The notes beneath the pieces were generated by a model. The model was not told where the DNA came from, did not search any database, and saw only the letters and a program-made list of their open reading frames with translations. The translations under genes were made by a program, and so were the position numbers. This document shows positions 9,503-16,360 of a stretch of 64,000 nt of DNA, piece after piece. The stretch comes from Fimbriiglobus ruber (GTDB lineage Bacteria; Planctomycetota; Planctomycetia; Gemmatales; Gemmataceae): assembly GCF_002197845.1 (NCBI RefSeq), contig NZ_NIDE01000018.1, positions 62,001-126,000 of the forward strand, given 5' to 3'. How positions within the stretch are numbered: position 1 is the stretch's first letter; each line of letters starts with the position of its first letter.

Positions 9503-9589
9503 TTTCTGCACCTCCTCCGCCGAAAGAATCCATGCAAGCCTTGGGGGTATCGAAAAGGGTATCGCCCCTTCGCACACGGGAGGCTTGAG

Positions 9590-10651
9590 ATGGCTACGGA
9601 TACCATTATCGCGATCGACCTCGGGCGGTTCAACTCGGTCGCGTGCGTTTACACCCGGTCGACCCGGGCCCACACGTTCCGGACGCTCGACACGACCCCG
9701 GCCGATGTCGGCCGAGTCCTGGCCGCGCACCCCAGGGCGGTGGTCGTCATCGAGGCGTGCGCGAACGCCGGGTGGGTACACGACCAGGCGATCGCCGCCG
9801 GGTACCCGGTGAAGGTCGCGAACACGGCGGCCGAGGCGTGGAAGTTCCAGCACCTGAAGCGGAAGACGGACAAGGACGACGCCGTCCGGCTGGCCGAGTT
9901 GGAGGCCATCGGCCAACTCCCGACGGTCGCCCTCCCCGATCCGGCGACCCGCGAGCGGCGGGCCCTGATCGCATTCCGCCAGGAACTCGTGGGCCGCCGG
10001 GTCGCGTGCCAGAACCGGATCCGGGCTCTGTTCGCTGGGCACGGGCTGGCGACCCCGCGGGGGCACCGGGCGTGGACGGCGACAGGCCTGGACGGGATCG
10101 CGGCCCAGGCCAAACCACTCGCCGACTGCGGGCCGGCCGAGTTGTGGAAGGGGATGCTCGACCTAGCGGTGACCGAGTACCGGGCCCTGGTCGACCGGAT
10201 CGCGGACGCCGAGCGGGCCCTGGACGTGCTGGCCGCAGCCGACGTCCGGACGACGCTCCTGGAGACTATCCCGGGGGTCGGGCGGCGGACGGCCGAGGCG
10301 GTCGCCGCCCACCTCGGGGATCCGACCCGGTTCGCGTCGGCCAAGCAGGTCGGGGCGTACGCCGGGCTGGTCCCGAAGCAGTACCAGAGCGGGGTGACCG
10401 ACCGCAAGGGGCGGATCACCCGCCGGGGCCCGGGGGTGCTGCGGAAGTTGCTGGTCGAGTGCGCGTGGTGCATGCTCCGGTACAACCCGTGGGCCCGGGC
10501 CCAGTACGCCCGGCTGACCGGGGGCGGGGCGAGTCGCAAGAAGCCGGCGATCGTGGCCCTGGCGCGGAAGTTGTTGGTCCGGTGCTGGGCCATCCTGCGG
10601 TCCGGTCAGGGGTGGCGGGCGGATCCCGTCCCGGCCGTTGTGAGCGGGTAA
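9590..10651 (+). CDS. IS110-family transposase (DEDD recombinase), first copy
   Basis: A GGGAGG site precedes ATG 9590. The 353-residue product has the RuvC-like DEDD domain at its front: IAIDLGRFNSVACV with the first Asp, VVIEACANAGWV with Glu, and KRKTDKDDAVRLAEL with the Asp pair. The C-terminal Tnp_IS116/IS110/IS902 domain is LLETIPGVGRRTAEAVAAHL, then VGAYAGLVPKQYQSG, followed by a basic tail. Length is normal for the family. The upstream open frame from 9242 is an artefact that runs through the IS630 end and attC. The gene is intact and the element could be active. It is only distantly similar to the second IS110 transposase at 11306. Confidence 0.92.
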   Translation: MATDTIIAIDLGRFNSVACVYTRSTRAHTFRTLDTTPADVGRVLAAHPRAVVVIEACANAGWVHDQAIAAGYPVKVANTAAEAWKFQHLKRKTDKDDAVRLAELEAIGQLPTVALPDPATRERRALIAFRQELVGRRVACQNRIRALFAGHGLATPRGHRAWTATGLDGIAAQAKPLADCGPAELWKGMLDLAVTEYRALVDRIADAERALDVLAAADVRTTLLETIPGVGRRTAEAVAAHLGDPTRFASAKQVGAYAGLVPKQYQSGVTDRKGRITRRGPGVLRKLLVECAWCMLRYNPWARAQYARLTGGGASRKKPAIVALARKLLVRCWAILRSGQGWRADPVPAVVSG

Positions 10652-10694
10652 GGGCCGCCGGCGACCGGGGCGAACGAATACGAACCCACGGACG

Positions 10695-10815
10695 GCGAGT
10701 CGGACACACGAGGGCCTGTCCGCGTCAGCTCGGAGCTTGGGATGGGGAGGGTGGCACGGCGTGCCGTTCACCTCGGCCGAACGAATGGGCGGCGCGGCGG
10801 ATCGGATGGGTGGGG
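10695..10815 (+). ncRNA. Candidate bridge RNA segment in the right end of the first IS110 element
   Basis: Two stretches of this non-coding right end match the attC target into which the element inserted. GAGCTTGGG at 10733-10741 equals the bottom strand of the right target half, and GCCGAACG at 10776-10783 equals the top strand across the junction. They flank a hairpin built from the palindromic GGCAC..GTGCC at 10753-10765, so they could form the two sides of an internal loop. This is the layout of a target-binding loop in IS110-family bridge RNAs, and IS1111-type elements are known to carry their RNA in the right end. RNA ends and the donor loop are not resolved; only a weak ATAGT match to the right terminus is seen near 10855. 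Confidence 0.55.
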
Positions 10816-10929
10816 CCGGGCACACAACCCGTCACGGGGTGCCCGCGACCTCGGATAGTCGAGTGCGGTCATCGCGTGTGCGGGTCGACGGGCGTGGGGC
10901 GTGCGAGAGCCCGGCCGGGGGTCGGGTGG

Positions 10930-10993
10930 GGGTTGTTTCGTCCCCCGACCGACCCCAGCCAGGGTGAGGGTCGGTCGGGGGACGAAACAACCC
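10930..10993. repeat. Perfect 26-bp inverted repeat with 12-base loop
   Basis: The arms 10930-10955 and 10968-10993 are perfectly complementary and would form a very stable hairpin in RNA or a cruciform in DNA. The repeat lies in the non-coding right end of the first IS110 element, downstream of the candidate guide RNA. There is no T-tract, so it is not a standard intrinsic terminator. It may stop or protect the element's transcripts, or it may be a separate small palindromic insertion. I saw no second copy in the window. Confidence 0.8.
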
Positions 10994-11149
10994 GGGAAAC
11001 CGAGGACAAGAAGGGGTTGACCAGTCCAAGGCTTCATAGTCGCCCAAGCTCAGCAGCCCCGCCGCTGAAGCAACTCCACCACTATAGAGCCGTCATGCGG
11101 CGGGGTCTGCTGCAGCGCCTCACATGTTACTGTGAAGTAGTCGTGAGGA

Positions 11150-11300
11150 CGAGCCCGGCGGTCGGACAACCGCATGCAGCGGATGAGGCTCCGACCTCGT
11201 GAACAAGGTCGCGGACCGACCGCCGGCGCTCCTCGACTTCGGACGCTACCCTGCGGGCCACCCCGTGTGGACCCCGTATTCGTGAAGCTGTAAGGGAGGG
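11150..11300 (+). ncRNA. Candidate bridge RNA of the second IS110 element, with guides matching attC
   Basis: A stem pairs CGGTCGG (11159-11165) with CCGACCG (11216-11222) and CCGC (11170-11173) with GCGG (11211-11214). It opens into an internal loop closed by a hairpin, ATGAGG..CCTCGT. The 5' side of the loop holds TGCAGCG (11175-11181), equal to the top strand of the left target half. The 3' side holds GAACAAGG (11201-11208), equal to the bottom strand of the right target half including the CT core. Further on, ACGCTACC (11243-11250) equals the element's own right terminus, as expected of a donor-binding loop; the other donor guide is weak (GTGTGG near 11265). All this matches bridge RNA logic known from IS621. 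The exact RNA ends are unknown. Confidence 0.7.
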
Positions 11301-11305
11301 ACGCC

Positions 11306-12331
11306 ATGGGCACCGTCACCACGACCGCGTTCGTCGGCATCGACGTCAGCAAGAAGACCCTCGACGCGTGCCTCCTGACCCCGGACGGGAAGGCCCGCGA
11401 CCACGCCTTCGCGAACGACCCGGACGGGCACGCGGCCCTGGTCGCGTGGGTCGACGGGCACGCGAGCGGGGCCGACGTCCACTACGGGATGGAGTCGACC
11501 GGCGGGTACGAGGATGCTCTCGCCACCCACCTGCACGCAGCCGCCCGGCGGGTCAGTGTGATCAACCCGGTCCGGGTCAAGTACGCCGGGGTCGTCCGCG
11601 GGCGGGGGAACAAGACGGACAAGGCCGACGCCCGCCTGATCGCCGGGTACGTCCGCGATCACCGCCCCCCGGCCTGGGTCCCGCCGACCCCCGCGGTCCG
11701 CGAACTCCAGGCCCTGGTCCGCCGCCGGGACGACGTCCGGGCCCTAGCCGCGCAAGAGAAAACGCGGCTCGATAGCCCGCTCCTGACCCCGGCCGCCCGC
11801 AAGTCCGTGGCCCGCGTCATCAAGCTCCTGGGCAAGGAGGCCGACGCCATGCAGGCCGCCGCCGACGCTCTCATCGCGGCCACCCCGGAGATGGCCGCCG
11901 ACCGGGTTCTGCTGGCGTCCATCCCCGGAGTCGGGGACCAGACCGCGTCGACCGTCCTGGCCGAACTCCCGCCCGTCGCCCACATCCCGTCGGCCCAGGC
12001 GGCGGCCGCGTACGCCGGGTTGGCCCCCCGGGAGCACCGGAGCGGGACCAGTGTCCGCACCCGCCTGTCCAAGACCGGGAACGCCCGGCTCCGGAAGGCC
12101 CTGTACCTGCCGACCCTAACGGCGATCCGGTTCAACCCCCTGTTGAAACGGTTCTATGATCGCCTGGTGGCCGCCGGGAAGGCCAAGATGCAAGCCGTCG
12201 GGGCGTGCATGCGGAAGTTGGTCATGATCTGCTACGGGGTCCTCAAGAACCGGGCTCCGTTCGACCCGGCGTGGAGCATGGTTCGGCCGCCGGTCGGGGG
12301 TGCGCCCGACCATCCCCCGACCGGCGGATGA
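11306..12331 (+). CDS. IS110-family transposase (DEDD recombinase), second type
   Basis: An AAGGGAGGG ribosome site precedes ATG 11306. The 341-residue product shows FVGIDVSKKTLDACLL (first Asp), YGMESTGGYED (Glu) and GNKTDKADARLIAGY (Asp pair) of the DEDD RuvC-like domain. The C-terminal domain contains LASIPGVGDQTASTVLAEL and AAAAYAGLAPREHRSG, then SKTGNARLRKALYLPTL and CMRKLVMICYGVLKN. It appears intact. It belongs to a different IS110 subgroup from the transposase at 9590: the non-coding RNA candidate lies upstream of this gene rather than downstream. Confidence 0.93.
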   Translation: MGTVTTTAFVGIDVSKKTLDACLLTPDGKARDHAFANDPDGHAALVAWVDGHASGADVHYGMESTGGYEDALATHLHAAARRVSVINPVRVKYAGVVRGRGNKTDKADARLIAGYVRDHRPPAWVPPTPAVRELQALVRRRDDVRALAAQEKTRLDSPLLTPAARKSVARVIKLLGKEADAMQAAADALIAATPEMAADRVLLASIPGVGDQTASTVLAELPPVAHIPSAQAAAAYAGLAPREHRSGTSVRTRLSKTGNARLRKALYLPTLTAIRFNPLLKRFYDRLVAAGKAKMQAVGACMRKLVMICYGVLKNRAPFDPAWSMVRPPVGGAPDHPPTGG

Positions 12332-12384
12332 ATCATGCGTTTTTGCCCCTTGACAACACGCTACCTTGTTCGGCGTCTGGACGC

Positions 12385-13103: not shown

Positions 13104-13555
13104 TTGTAATTGGAGTGAACGTGTACAACCTATCACGTCCGGTATCCAATCCAAATTAAATCTACTAACCCCATAGCCTTTCGACCATTTGCACCAGACG
13201 TTTCCGTGCACCCCATCCCACTAACGCACATTGCACGGGCGTCACTCGTCCAGGGGGCTCTTTACCCCGCGGCCTCCCCGGTTCATTACGTGTGTGTAAA
13301 TCATCGTCGTGCTCACGTCCTCGTGCCCCAGCAACTCCTGAACCGTGCGGATGTCGTACCCGGCTTCCAGCAGGTGGGTCGCGAAGCTGTGCCGGAACGA
13401 GTGGCTGGTCGCCCGCTTGCCGATGCCCGACGACCGCACGGCGGCCGACACGGCCCGGCTCATCGAACTCTCGTGCAGGTGGTGCCGGCGGACGGCTCCC
13501 GACCGCGGGTCGACCGACCGCTCGGCCGACGGGAACACGTACTGCCACTTCCACT

Positions 13556-15188
13556 GTAGCTGTCTATTCTGTACAGCTGAGGGGCCTTTCCGGATGTGCC
13601 CGTGGCCGCTAATTTTCCGTCATGGGGATGAGCAGCTCAAACAGGACGTTCGGCAGGCAAGGTGTCACCCGAACACCTGGTCGACCTGATCGTGTCCCTC
13701 CAAGCCGAACTCCTGGCCGCTCGCCAACGCATCCGCGAACTTGAGCAACACCTCCCCACCCCGCCGACCGCCAAACTCGATCAACCGTTCTCCATGCGGG
13801 CCGAAGAGCAACGACAACACGCCCGTTCGAACAAGCCCCAGAAAAGGAAGAAGCCGAAGCGACACGGGCGGGTCACGACCGCGGACAAGATCGCTCGCGC
13901 GGAACGCACCGAGAAGGTGTTCCCGGCCGGCATCCCGCCCGCCGACTGCCGCCGGTCTCACGTCCGCCCGGTGTGGCGGTTCGAGAGCGGGCGTGCGGTC
14001 CTGGTCGCGTACGAGATCTATCGCGGACCCAAGAACCAGTACGGTCAGATCCCCGGGGTGTTCGGCCGCAGTGAATTCGCGGTCGAGATCGTCGTCGCGA
14101 TCGCATTCCTGGTCCATGGCGTCGGCCTGTCGTTCGACAAAGTGTGCCAGGTGCTGACGTTCTTCCAACAACTCCGGCTGCCGAAGTCCCAAGCCGACGC
14201 CTTGCTCCGCCAGTTGTCGCGGCACTGGGAGAAGGAGTTCGACACCCTGTGTACCCTGTTGGCCCACGCGGCCGTCGTCCACGCGGACGAGACCCGGTGG
14301 AGTCTGAACAGCGTGTGGGCATTCCTGTCCGAACAGGCCCGGGTGTTGCTGTTCGGGGTTCACAAGGATGCCGGGACGCTCAAGACCATTCTCGATCCGG
14401 AGACGTTCGAGGGTGTTCTGGTGAGCGACGACGCGGCCGTGTACGCGACTTTCACGATCGCGCAAAAGTGCTGGGCGCACCTCCTCCGCAAGGCGATTAA
14501 GCTGACCCTGCAGGAACCCGACCACGAGGGCTACCGGACGTTCACCGACCGGTTGCTGGAGATCTACCGGGCGGCGTGCCGGGCACGGGACGACGGCCGG
14601 TTGAGCGATGCCGGCCGGACCGCCCGGGTCGAGGGTCTGGAACAGCGGGTGTACGACCTGTGTTCGGCCCAGTGGCTGGCCGACGAACCGCCGGGCGACG
14701 GATGCCGGAATGACTACCGCCTGCTGGTCAATGAACTGATGCGGTTGATGCTGGCCAAGGAATTGTTCCCGTTCGTAACGGCCCCGGCGGTGACGCAACC
14801 GAACGGTGCAACGGCCCCGGTCGCGGGGACGAACAACGAAGCCGAGCGGACCCTCCGGGGTTCGGCGGACGCGCGGAAGACGGGTCGGACGAGTAAGACC
14901 CCGGCCGGCGCGCGGCGGCGGACGATCCTGATGAGCGTACTGGAATCGCTGCGGTTGTACTTGACGGAGTGGACGTTGGCGAGCGTGATCGCGGAAGTGA
15001 CGCGGTGGATGGAGGCAGGGCGAAGTTGCTTCGAAGATCTCCTGATCAAACTGAAGATTCCACGCCCGGAAGACTCGATCCTGGATCGCATCTTTCCCAA
15101 GGTCGAAATGGCTACCTCGTAGAAGCGGGCACGCGTCTGAACTGGGAAATTCTCAGGCCGTTCCCGTACGTACAGAATAGACAGCTAC
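13556..15188 (+). mobile_element. IS66-family element (tnpC-only type) inserted in intI
   Basis: Terminal inverted repeats GTAGCTGTCTATTCTGTAC lie at 13556-13574 and, reversed, 15170-15188. An 8-bp target duplication CTTCCACT flanks the element (13548-13555 and 15189-15196), the size typical of IS66. The element is 1,633 bp with a single gene, like the ISBst12 subgroup, which lacks tnpA and tnpB. The perfect duplication suggests a recent, simple insertion. Confidence 0.95.
13662..15122 (+). CDS. tnpC: IS66-family transposase TnpC
   Basis: The 486-residue product begins at GTG 13662 with a leucine-zipper-like helix (LQAELLAARQRIRELEQHL), then a basic region KPQKRKKPKRHGR. The DDE domain shows VVHADETRWSLN (first Asp), VLVSDDAAVYATF (second Asp), KCWAHLLRKA, and NNEAERTLRGSADARKTGR with the catalytic Glu, ending in SVLESLRLYL. 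The zinc-finger segment of classical IS66 TnpC is not evident. The gene appears intact, so the element may still be mobile and could in principle restore intI on precise excision. Confidence 0.92.
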   Translation: MSPEHLVDLIVSLQAELLAARQRIRELEQHLPTPPTAKLDQPFSMRAEEQRQHARSNKPQKRKKPKRHGRVTTADKIARAERTEKVFPAGIPPADCRRSHVRPVWRFESGRAVLVAYEIYRGPKNQYGQIPGVFGRSEFAVEIVVAIAFLVHGVGLSFDKVCQVLTFFQQLRLPKSQADALLRQLSRHWEKEFDTLCTLLAHAAVVHADETRWSLNSVWAFLSEQARVLLFGVHKDAGTLKTILDPETFEGVLVSDDAAVYATFTIAQKCWAHLLRKAIKLTLQEPDHEGYRTFTDRLLEIYRAACRARDDGRLSDAGRTARVEGLEQRVYDLCSAQWLADEPPGDGCRNDYRLLVNELMRLMLAKELFPFVTAPAVTQPNGATAPVAGTNNEAERTLRGSADARKTGRTSKTPAGARRRTILMSVLESLRLYLTEWTLASVIAEVTRWMEAGRSCFEDLLIKLKIPRPEDSILDRIFPKVEMATS

Positions 15189-16015
15189 CTTCCACTCGAC
15201 CGCCGCCCCCGCCAGCTTCCGGTCCAGTGCGGCCGGCAGGTACACCGCCCCGCCCCCGGCCGCCAGATCCTTCTCGTGGACCCGCCGGACGCCGTCCAGG
15301 TGGCGGAGGAGTTCCGGTTCCAGGGACGCGGGCAGCATCGTCACCCGGTCCTTGTTCCCCTTGCCTTCGCGGACCATCAACTCTCGGCGGGCGAAGTCGA
15401 GATCCTTGACCCGGAGCCGCAGCGCCTCCAAGAGCCTCAGGCCCGACCCGTACAGCAGGTGGGCGACCAGCCGGTACGGGTCGTCGAGCTGCCGGAGGAC
15501 GAGCCGGACTTCCGGCCGGGTCAACACGACCGGTAGCCGCTTCGGCCGGTGGGCCCGGACGACGCCGGCGATCACCCCCGGGTCCGCGCGGAGGACGTGC
15601 CGGTAGAGGAACAGGATCCCGCTGTACGCCTGGTTCTGGGTCGACGCGCCTACTCCACCGTCGACGGCCAGGTGGGTAAGGAAGGCGGTGATCTCGGCCG
15701 CGGCCATGTCAGCCGGGTGCCGCTTGCCGTGGAACAGAATGAACCGCCGGACCCAGTCGTGATACGCGTCTTCCGTCCGCAAACTGTAGTGCCGGACCCG
15801 ACACGCCGCCCGCAGGCGGTCGAGCAACTTGGGCTCGCCCGGCGGGTGTTCAGGTCTGGACAGGCGATCACTCATAACCCGATTGAACCAGACCCGCCGA
15901 CCGAATGCAATCCATCTCTTTTCACGCGGGCGAATTTTTGCAGCCGGCAAGACCGCGCCGGTGCTAGACGGGTCACGCGTAAGTGGAAACCTGCAGCCGC
16001 ACACCACCCGCCTCG

Positions 16016-16360
16016 TCAGCCCGTCGGCCTTTCTTTGCTGCGCTCGAATGTCCGCTCGGGTGCTTGCGTGATGGCCGTTTCTCGGCCGCTCAGTGCGTAA
16101 CGGAGCCGGACAACTGAAGCCGCAATCAAACCTGCTCGGGAGAGCCGATGAACCCGACCGGTCGCATCTCGATCGCGGTCCATGACGTCGGCGAATGCGT
16201 CCGTCATCCAACCCGCGGTCGGCGATCCTTTCTCCAGACCCACCCGGCGGAAGTCGTGCACCGCCCGTTCTTCGAACGACTGCTCGATAGCGTCGAACCC
16301 GTCAAGCAAGCCATAGGCCGCGACCGCGAGATCCCATAGGCGAAACAACTCGTCGATCAC
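16016..16360 (-). CDS. Hypothetical small helical protein, translationally coupled to the upstream membrane protein
   Basis: GTG 16360 overlaps the TGA of the upstream gene in a GTGA motif, a strong sign of translational coupling. The 114-residue product starts [22 protein letters not shown] and continues through [15 protein letters not shown] and [20 protein letters not shown]; it is predominantly helical and soluble. A much longer frame in the same phase (to 16828) is a chance extension over the membrane gene. I recognise no family. Confidence 0.6.

Follow-up and report, generated by a model that had tools for sequence, protein, structure and literature searches.

The element and its insertion site

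The window, a stretch of 64,000 nucleotides from Fimbriiglobus ruber, contains a 1516-bp insertion sequence of the IS1111 type (element 1) lodged in an integron attC site, with a second, IS621-like insertion (element 2) close by. The main features are as follows.

9517 to 9524, + strand: left half of the target, with GCCGAA (attC R'') at its end, from flank comparison with relatives
9525 to 11040, + strand: element 1, whole; boundaries from relatives, subterminal inverted repeats (sTIRs) with 7/3 extensions, the predicted circle-junction promoter and native empty attC sites
9525 to 9531, + strand: left 7-bp extension AGAATCC, equal to the right donor half (RD); conserved or covarying in relatives
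9532 to 9544, + strand: left sTIR ATGCAAGCCTTGG, matching the right end in reverse complement, ATGAAGCCTTGG, except for one additional base on the left
9590 to 10651, + strand: tnp, encoding the 353-aa DEDD transposase P0001, with PF01548 and PF02371 (both IS110-family domains) and the motif GLVPKQYQSG
11017 to 11022, + strand: -35-like TTGACC; a circle would give TTGACC-N17-TAGAAT across its junction
11026 to 11037, + strand: right sTIR CCAAGGCTTCAT, from sTIR comparison
11038 to 11040, + strand: right 3-bp extension AGT, from the 7/3 rule
11041 to 11058, + strand: right half of the target, on the L'' side of attC, CGCCCAAGCTCAGCAGCC, from flank reading and native attC sites
11124 to 12368: element 2, IS621-like, at the opposite end of the attC holding element 1

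Only 65 bp of element 1 precede tnp at the left end, and between the tnp stop (10651) and the right terminus (11040) lies the 389-bp region (10652-11040) that the initial annotation had correctly taken to be non-coding (the NCR). The termini read AGAATCC/ATGCAAGCCTTGG ... CCAAGGCTTCAT/AGT, with an sTIR of 13 bp on the left and 12 bp on the right.

Because the F. ruber genome holds a single full copy of element 1, its ends were set from relatives, which were collected by protein search across planctomycete genomes. The closest of these share the left end ...(A)GAATCCATG(C/T)AAGCC, with the variant AGAACTGATGC in G030, and the right end ...GGCTTCATAGT. In L069 and L056 the left end begins with C in place of A, so that the crossover there is uncertain by one base; in elements with the right end CATAGA or CATAGG the boundary was placed by the 7/3 rule. 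L045, L065 and L082-L086, whose transposases are ~43-46% identical and carry long 3' ORF extensions, were left out, their right end being unrecognisable in the stretch read. Joining the ends of element 1 in silico creates the predicted junction promoter TTGACC-N17-TAGAAT, and TAGAAT also stands at N17 in L075, L076, L077, L078, L079 and L080. A scan of viral contigs with P0001 gave no match, while tblastn of plasmids with the same query found one close relative, in Acaryochloris (44%), the rest falling below 35%. On contig C9 of the F. ruber genome, two left-end remnants of element-1 relatives (L002, 303538-303673, and L003, 309985-310085) are 93-94% identical and lack a full transposase match.

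Element 1 is inserted between GCCGAA (ending at 9524) and CGCCCAAGCTC (CG... from 11041) of one attC. When the flanks are joined, the resulting GCCGAA/CGCCCAAGCTCAGC is like intact attC sites elsewhere in the genome: a pattern with one ambiguity, GCCGAACGNCCAAGCTCAGC, occurs 11 times, and in 8 of these it is exactly the joined-flank sequence. The same attC position and a single orientation are found in the window and in relatives in G205, G030, G312, G187, G103, G229, G149, G014 and G089; for the last four, only the right junction was read.

Guides and RNA architecture

Within and beside the predicted RNA, the right end of element 1 contains the following features.

10720 to 10732, + strand: 5' strand of the target-loop stem, CCGCGTCAGCTCG, with a bulged A; covariation in alignment A1
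10733 to 10741, + strand: guide 1 (right-target guide), GAGCTTGGG, reverse-complementary to the top-strand sequence CCCAAGCTC at 11043-11051, with which it pairs
10747 to 10773, + strand (limits approximate): inner hairpin between the guides, tip GGCAC GGC GTGCC; constrained fold
10776 to 10783, + strand: guide 2 (left-target guide), GCCGAACG, identical to the top strand of attC over the insertion point, where its pairing partner is the bottom strand
10786 to 10797, + strand: 3' strand of the target-loop stem; covariation
10799 to 10809, + strand: probable donor guide for the left end (GGATC/GGATGG, complementary to AATCC), short and imperfect in the window
10811 to 10853, + strand: donor-loop stem, 10811-10820 with 10842-10853; covariation
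10855 to 10860, + strand: donor guide ATAGTC, repeating the right end CATAGT(C) and changing along with it in relatives
10930 to 10992, + strand (limits approximate): perfect 26-bp hairpin, lying past the guide RNA and before the right end

The two guide-like stretches had been pointed out in the initial annotation, and their coordinates, strands and matches proved exact to the base; the GGCAC..GTGCC hairpin that it placed between them is present at 10753-10765. Guides 1 and 2 together cover 17 contiguous target bases; read jointly as GCCGAACG+CCCAAGCTC, they give the R''/L'' end of integron attC sites. The two guides lie opposite one another in a single internal loop, the top-strand complement coming first, an order shared by the relatives. 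This is the published IS1111 order (PMC11187229), as the initial annotation had suspected. It had also allowed that a match of 8-9 bases in 389 bp might be fortuitous. Among 5000 dinucleotide shuffles of the NCR, 14 contained a match at least as long as guide 1, 270 one at least as long as guide 2, and none both at once. Thus the reservation holds for guide 2 taken singly, which is unremarkable in one sequence and becomes remarkable through the relatives, and fails for the pair.

The internal loop, in which guide 1 occupies the 5' strand and guide 2 the 3' strand, is bounded by a 12-bp stem (10720-10732 with 10786-10797) and capped by the inner hairpin, whose sequence and length vary among relatives. 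The stems of the RNA are paired in 87.5% of cases in relatives, against 79.6% in shuffled and at most 50.5% in slid controls, and 19 double-change cells were counted against 4.2 in shuffles. Folded singly, the window RNA shows no extra stability relative to shuffles (z 0.18), and the consensus fold lies 0.9 kcal/mol above the MFE structure, which does not contain the consensus stem. The RNA structure therefore rests on comparison: the covariation supports the stems, and the fold of the single sequence, a check proposed at the outset, does not.

The guides are, as far as sequence can tell, as first described; added here are the target loop in which they lie and a predicted donor loop that follows it. 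L046 and L087, which have the right end CATAGAAGG, carry ATAGAAGG as donor guide, and the G030 elements combine the left end AGAACTG with an RNA containing CAGTT (against AACTG). Matches of this second loop to the left end are short.

Versions of the 26-bp hairpin with other sequences occur in the Gemmataceae relatives L067, L068, L074 and L097, and none is present in L053, L077 or L078; it possibly serves in RNA processing or 3'-end formation. An Rfam search of the region returned no family. The only Rfam matches were microRNA models scored on this hairpin, and they were dismissed as chance.

Guides follow their targets in relatives

Across 12 divergent elements, guide 1 scored 7.77 against the element's own right flank and 3.85 against those of others, a result that none of 500,000 permutations reached. 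For guide 2 and the left flank, compared in the 11 of these 12 elements with a readable left end, the scores were 4.45 and 1.95 (of 7; 3 of 500,000 permutations). The anchors for this fixed-register scoring were picked by eye, a choice avoided both by an anchor-free search of the whole NCR, in which the own-flank score was reached by 0 of 300,000 permutations, and by hold-outs in which a model placed the guide.

Relatives in other sites have both guides changed, each fitting its own flanks. Guide 1 reads ATACTCAAAC in L076, where the right flank is GTTTGAATAT; GTTAGAAC in L054, beside GTTCTAAC; and ACGGGTGCCA in L061, beside TGGCACCCGT. In L079/L080 the guide ATTGTGGG accompanies the right flanks CCTACAAT and CCACAAT. 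Guide 2 is identical to the left flank and end in L087 (CCGCCAAGAA and CCGCCAAGAA), L060 (CAGTTTGAA and CAGTTTGAA) and L061 (AACTGTGAA and AACTGTGAA). Agreement between guide 2 and the left flank is poor in L075, L078, L080 and L081, and in L053, which lay outside the guide 2 permutation set, it was 5/7 by eye. Guide 1 has no clear match in L077 or in the hold-out L118.

A covariance model, R1, was derived from 15 RNAs and picked up copies in 27 of 397 genomes of the class. The hold-out comprised eight elements unused in building it, seven found by R1 in these genomes and the Acaryochloris plasmid copy, which came from the protein search. With the guide placed by R1, guide 1 scored 6.5 against its own flank and 4.12 against others (9 of 200,000 permutations). 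The guide of the cyanobacterial plasmid copy, TCCATATCTC, matches its target at 10/10 positions. The covariation among homologues on which the initial annotation had staked its proposal is thus found: the guides keep a constant position with respect to a covarying stem, and in independent relatives, hold-outs included, they vary together with the target.

The related genomes G345 and G339 carry guide RNA copies, L114 and L115, in which guide 1 differs (TGTGGCGTATT and TGTGTTGTCC) and the right flanks differ too; L114 has two RNA matches.

An RNA-guided insertion model and its alternatives

Element 1 is very probably an IS1111-family insertion sequence whose 3' NCR encodes a seekRNA/bridge RNA, one loop of which would read the R''/L'' end of attC and the second the element's own ends, giving RNA-guided insertion into attC. 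The ends, target, guides, covariation and conserved RNA structure in this model are sequence-based, while transcription, RNA binding, circle formation and transposition are taken from the family's published mechanism. If element 1 behaves like ISEc11, ISKpn4 and others (PMC11187229), the DEDD transposase would excise it as a circle, in which the joined ends would form the promoter TTGACC-N17-TAGAAT and drive tnp and the RNA. The transposase would bind the NCR RNA and be guided by it to a guide-matching attC, where insertion would take place in a single orientation, with neither target duplication nor added bases.

It might be supposed that the structured RNA is real and that the transposase nevertheless selects the folded attC, the resemblance of the guides reflecting co-inheritance with a class of target. 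attC sites do fold as single strands, and IS1111 elements that target attC or REP sequences lie at potentially folded sites (PMC11187229). Yet many relatives occupy unrelated, non-attC targets, reprogramming has been shown for ISEc11, another IS1111 element (PMC11187229), and even among attC-inserted elements alone, whose targets are alike, guides fit their own flank better than others (342 of 100,000 permutations). This explanation is accordingly very unlikely.

We regard as highly improbable the idea that the attC-like stretches represent a captured attC fragment or a decoy, such as a remnant of imprecise excision, with no guide RNA involved. An element residing in attC arrays could copy an attC, GCCGAAC and AAGCTC boxes included; a captured piece would not, however, place the stretches on opposite strands and in reversed order relative to attC, nor account for the covarying flanking stem. 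The non-integron relatives L076, L079/L080, L095, L060 and L061, which match non-attC targets at the same positions, refute it. Chance resemblance of an 8-mer and a 9-mer to the attC flank, to which a GC-rich non-coding region and the guide 2 match length seen in 5% of shuffles lend some colour, has a negligible probability and is refuted by the covariation of guides with targets, different targets being tracked from fixed positions in independent elements and both matches together being absent from all shuffles.

Relationship to known systems

The RNA-guided model places element 1 among known systems. IS1111 elements are characterized by sTIRs with 7/3 extensions, a 3' NCR and an RNA with the top-strand complement first (PMC11187229). 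Every sequence-level trait examined agrees with membership of this family: sTIRs of ~11-13 bp extended by 7 bp on the left and 3 bp on the right, a long NCR (389 bp) downstream of tnp, guides in the order 10733 then 10776, and a transposase that aligns full-length with that of IS4321 (27% over 350 columns, E 4e-25) and carries the motif GL-P----S(T)G as GLVPKQYQSG. Insertion in one orientation at a fixed attC position is that of the 'IS1111-attC group' (Tetu and Holmes 2008, as cited in PMC11187229). An RNA upstream of the recombinase gene, as in the left end of IS621-like elements, is not what is seen, as both the RNA model and the guides of element 1 fall downstream of tnp.

The attC-targeting elements ISKpn4, ISPst6 and ISPa25 use a seekRNA (Siddiquee et al. 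2024, PMC11187229). Element 1 is like them in transposase type, downstream NCR, guide order, one-end attC insertion and the logic of a predicted circle-junction promoter; it differs from these elements, as known from their description, in its planctomycete host and an attC type with a GCCGAAC core. It is also set apart by a left sTIR one base longer and by a transposase only ~27% identical to that of its fellow family member IS4321. IS621 and ISCro4 are bridge-RNA recombinases of the IS110 group (Durrant et al. 2024, PMC11208160), with which element 1 shares a DEDD and Tnp_20 recombinase and a bispecific RNA that has both a target loop and a donor loop. In the IS621 type, however, the RNA lies in the left end and the guide order is reversed, and P0001 matches the IS621/ISCro4 recombinases only partially (E 5e-23 over two pieces).

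Element 1 is therefore well supported, from its sequence features, as an attC-targeting seekRNA/bridge-RNA element of the IS1111 type, a kind described in 2024, and the principle is already known. New here are a divergent planctomycete/cyanobacterial branch in which retargeting has happened naturally many times, and the presence of two RNA-guided families at one attC. The natural series of guides and targets for this branch, extending from planctomycetes to a cyanobacterial plasmid, provides material for working out the IS1111 guide code (~9-10 bases on the right and 6-8 on the left, plus the donor loop) and for finding programmable recombinases beyond Proteobacteria.

Two families in one attC

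The recombinase of element 2, P0002 (11306-12331), is IS621/ISCro4-like (E 6e-64 to ISCro4). All copies of element 2 in the F. ruber genome whose junctions were read lie at the GTTCGGC end of attC sites, in keeping with the earlier proposal that the two elements read opposite ends. Its 5' NCR, read by eye, contains a top-strand match, TGCAGCG, followed by the complement GAACAAGG, which is the IS110 order and, as had also been proposed, the reverse of that in element 1. With element 1 at one end and element 2 at the GTTCGGC end, each end of the attC in the window is broken by a member of a different family. Such double occupation recurs, with different attC arms, in L053 (G187) and L097 (G089).

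Integron arrays thus offer a niche where a single site serves two RNA-guided families, one at either end. A broader proposal, which we consider unlikely, is that these distantly related IS1111-type and IS621-type elements, with their opposite RNA architectures, each evolved guides for opposite attC ends, repeatedly share one attC and may jointly flank the cassettes of planctomycete integrons, fix them in place or mobilise them together.

Elsewhere in the F. ruber genome (L015, contig C14, ~393918), an attC retains only CACATGTTA of the element 2 left end, followed almost directly by CCTTGTTCGGC; this is either a deleted copy of element 2 or an excision scar. In the window, two parts of what is seemingly one integron-integrase/tyrosine recombinase gene appear in the ORF list on the - strand (13242-13559 and 15153-16211), separated by an IS66-like transposase ORF (13662-15122), so that the integron integrase seems to be interrupted.
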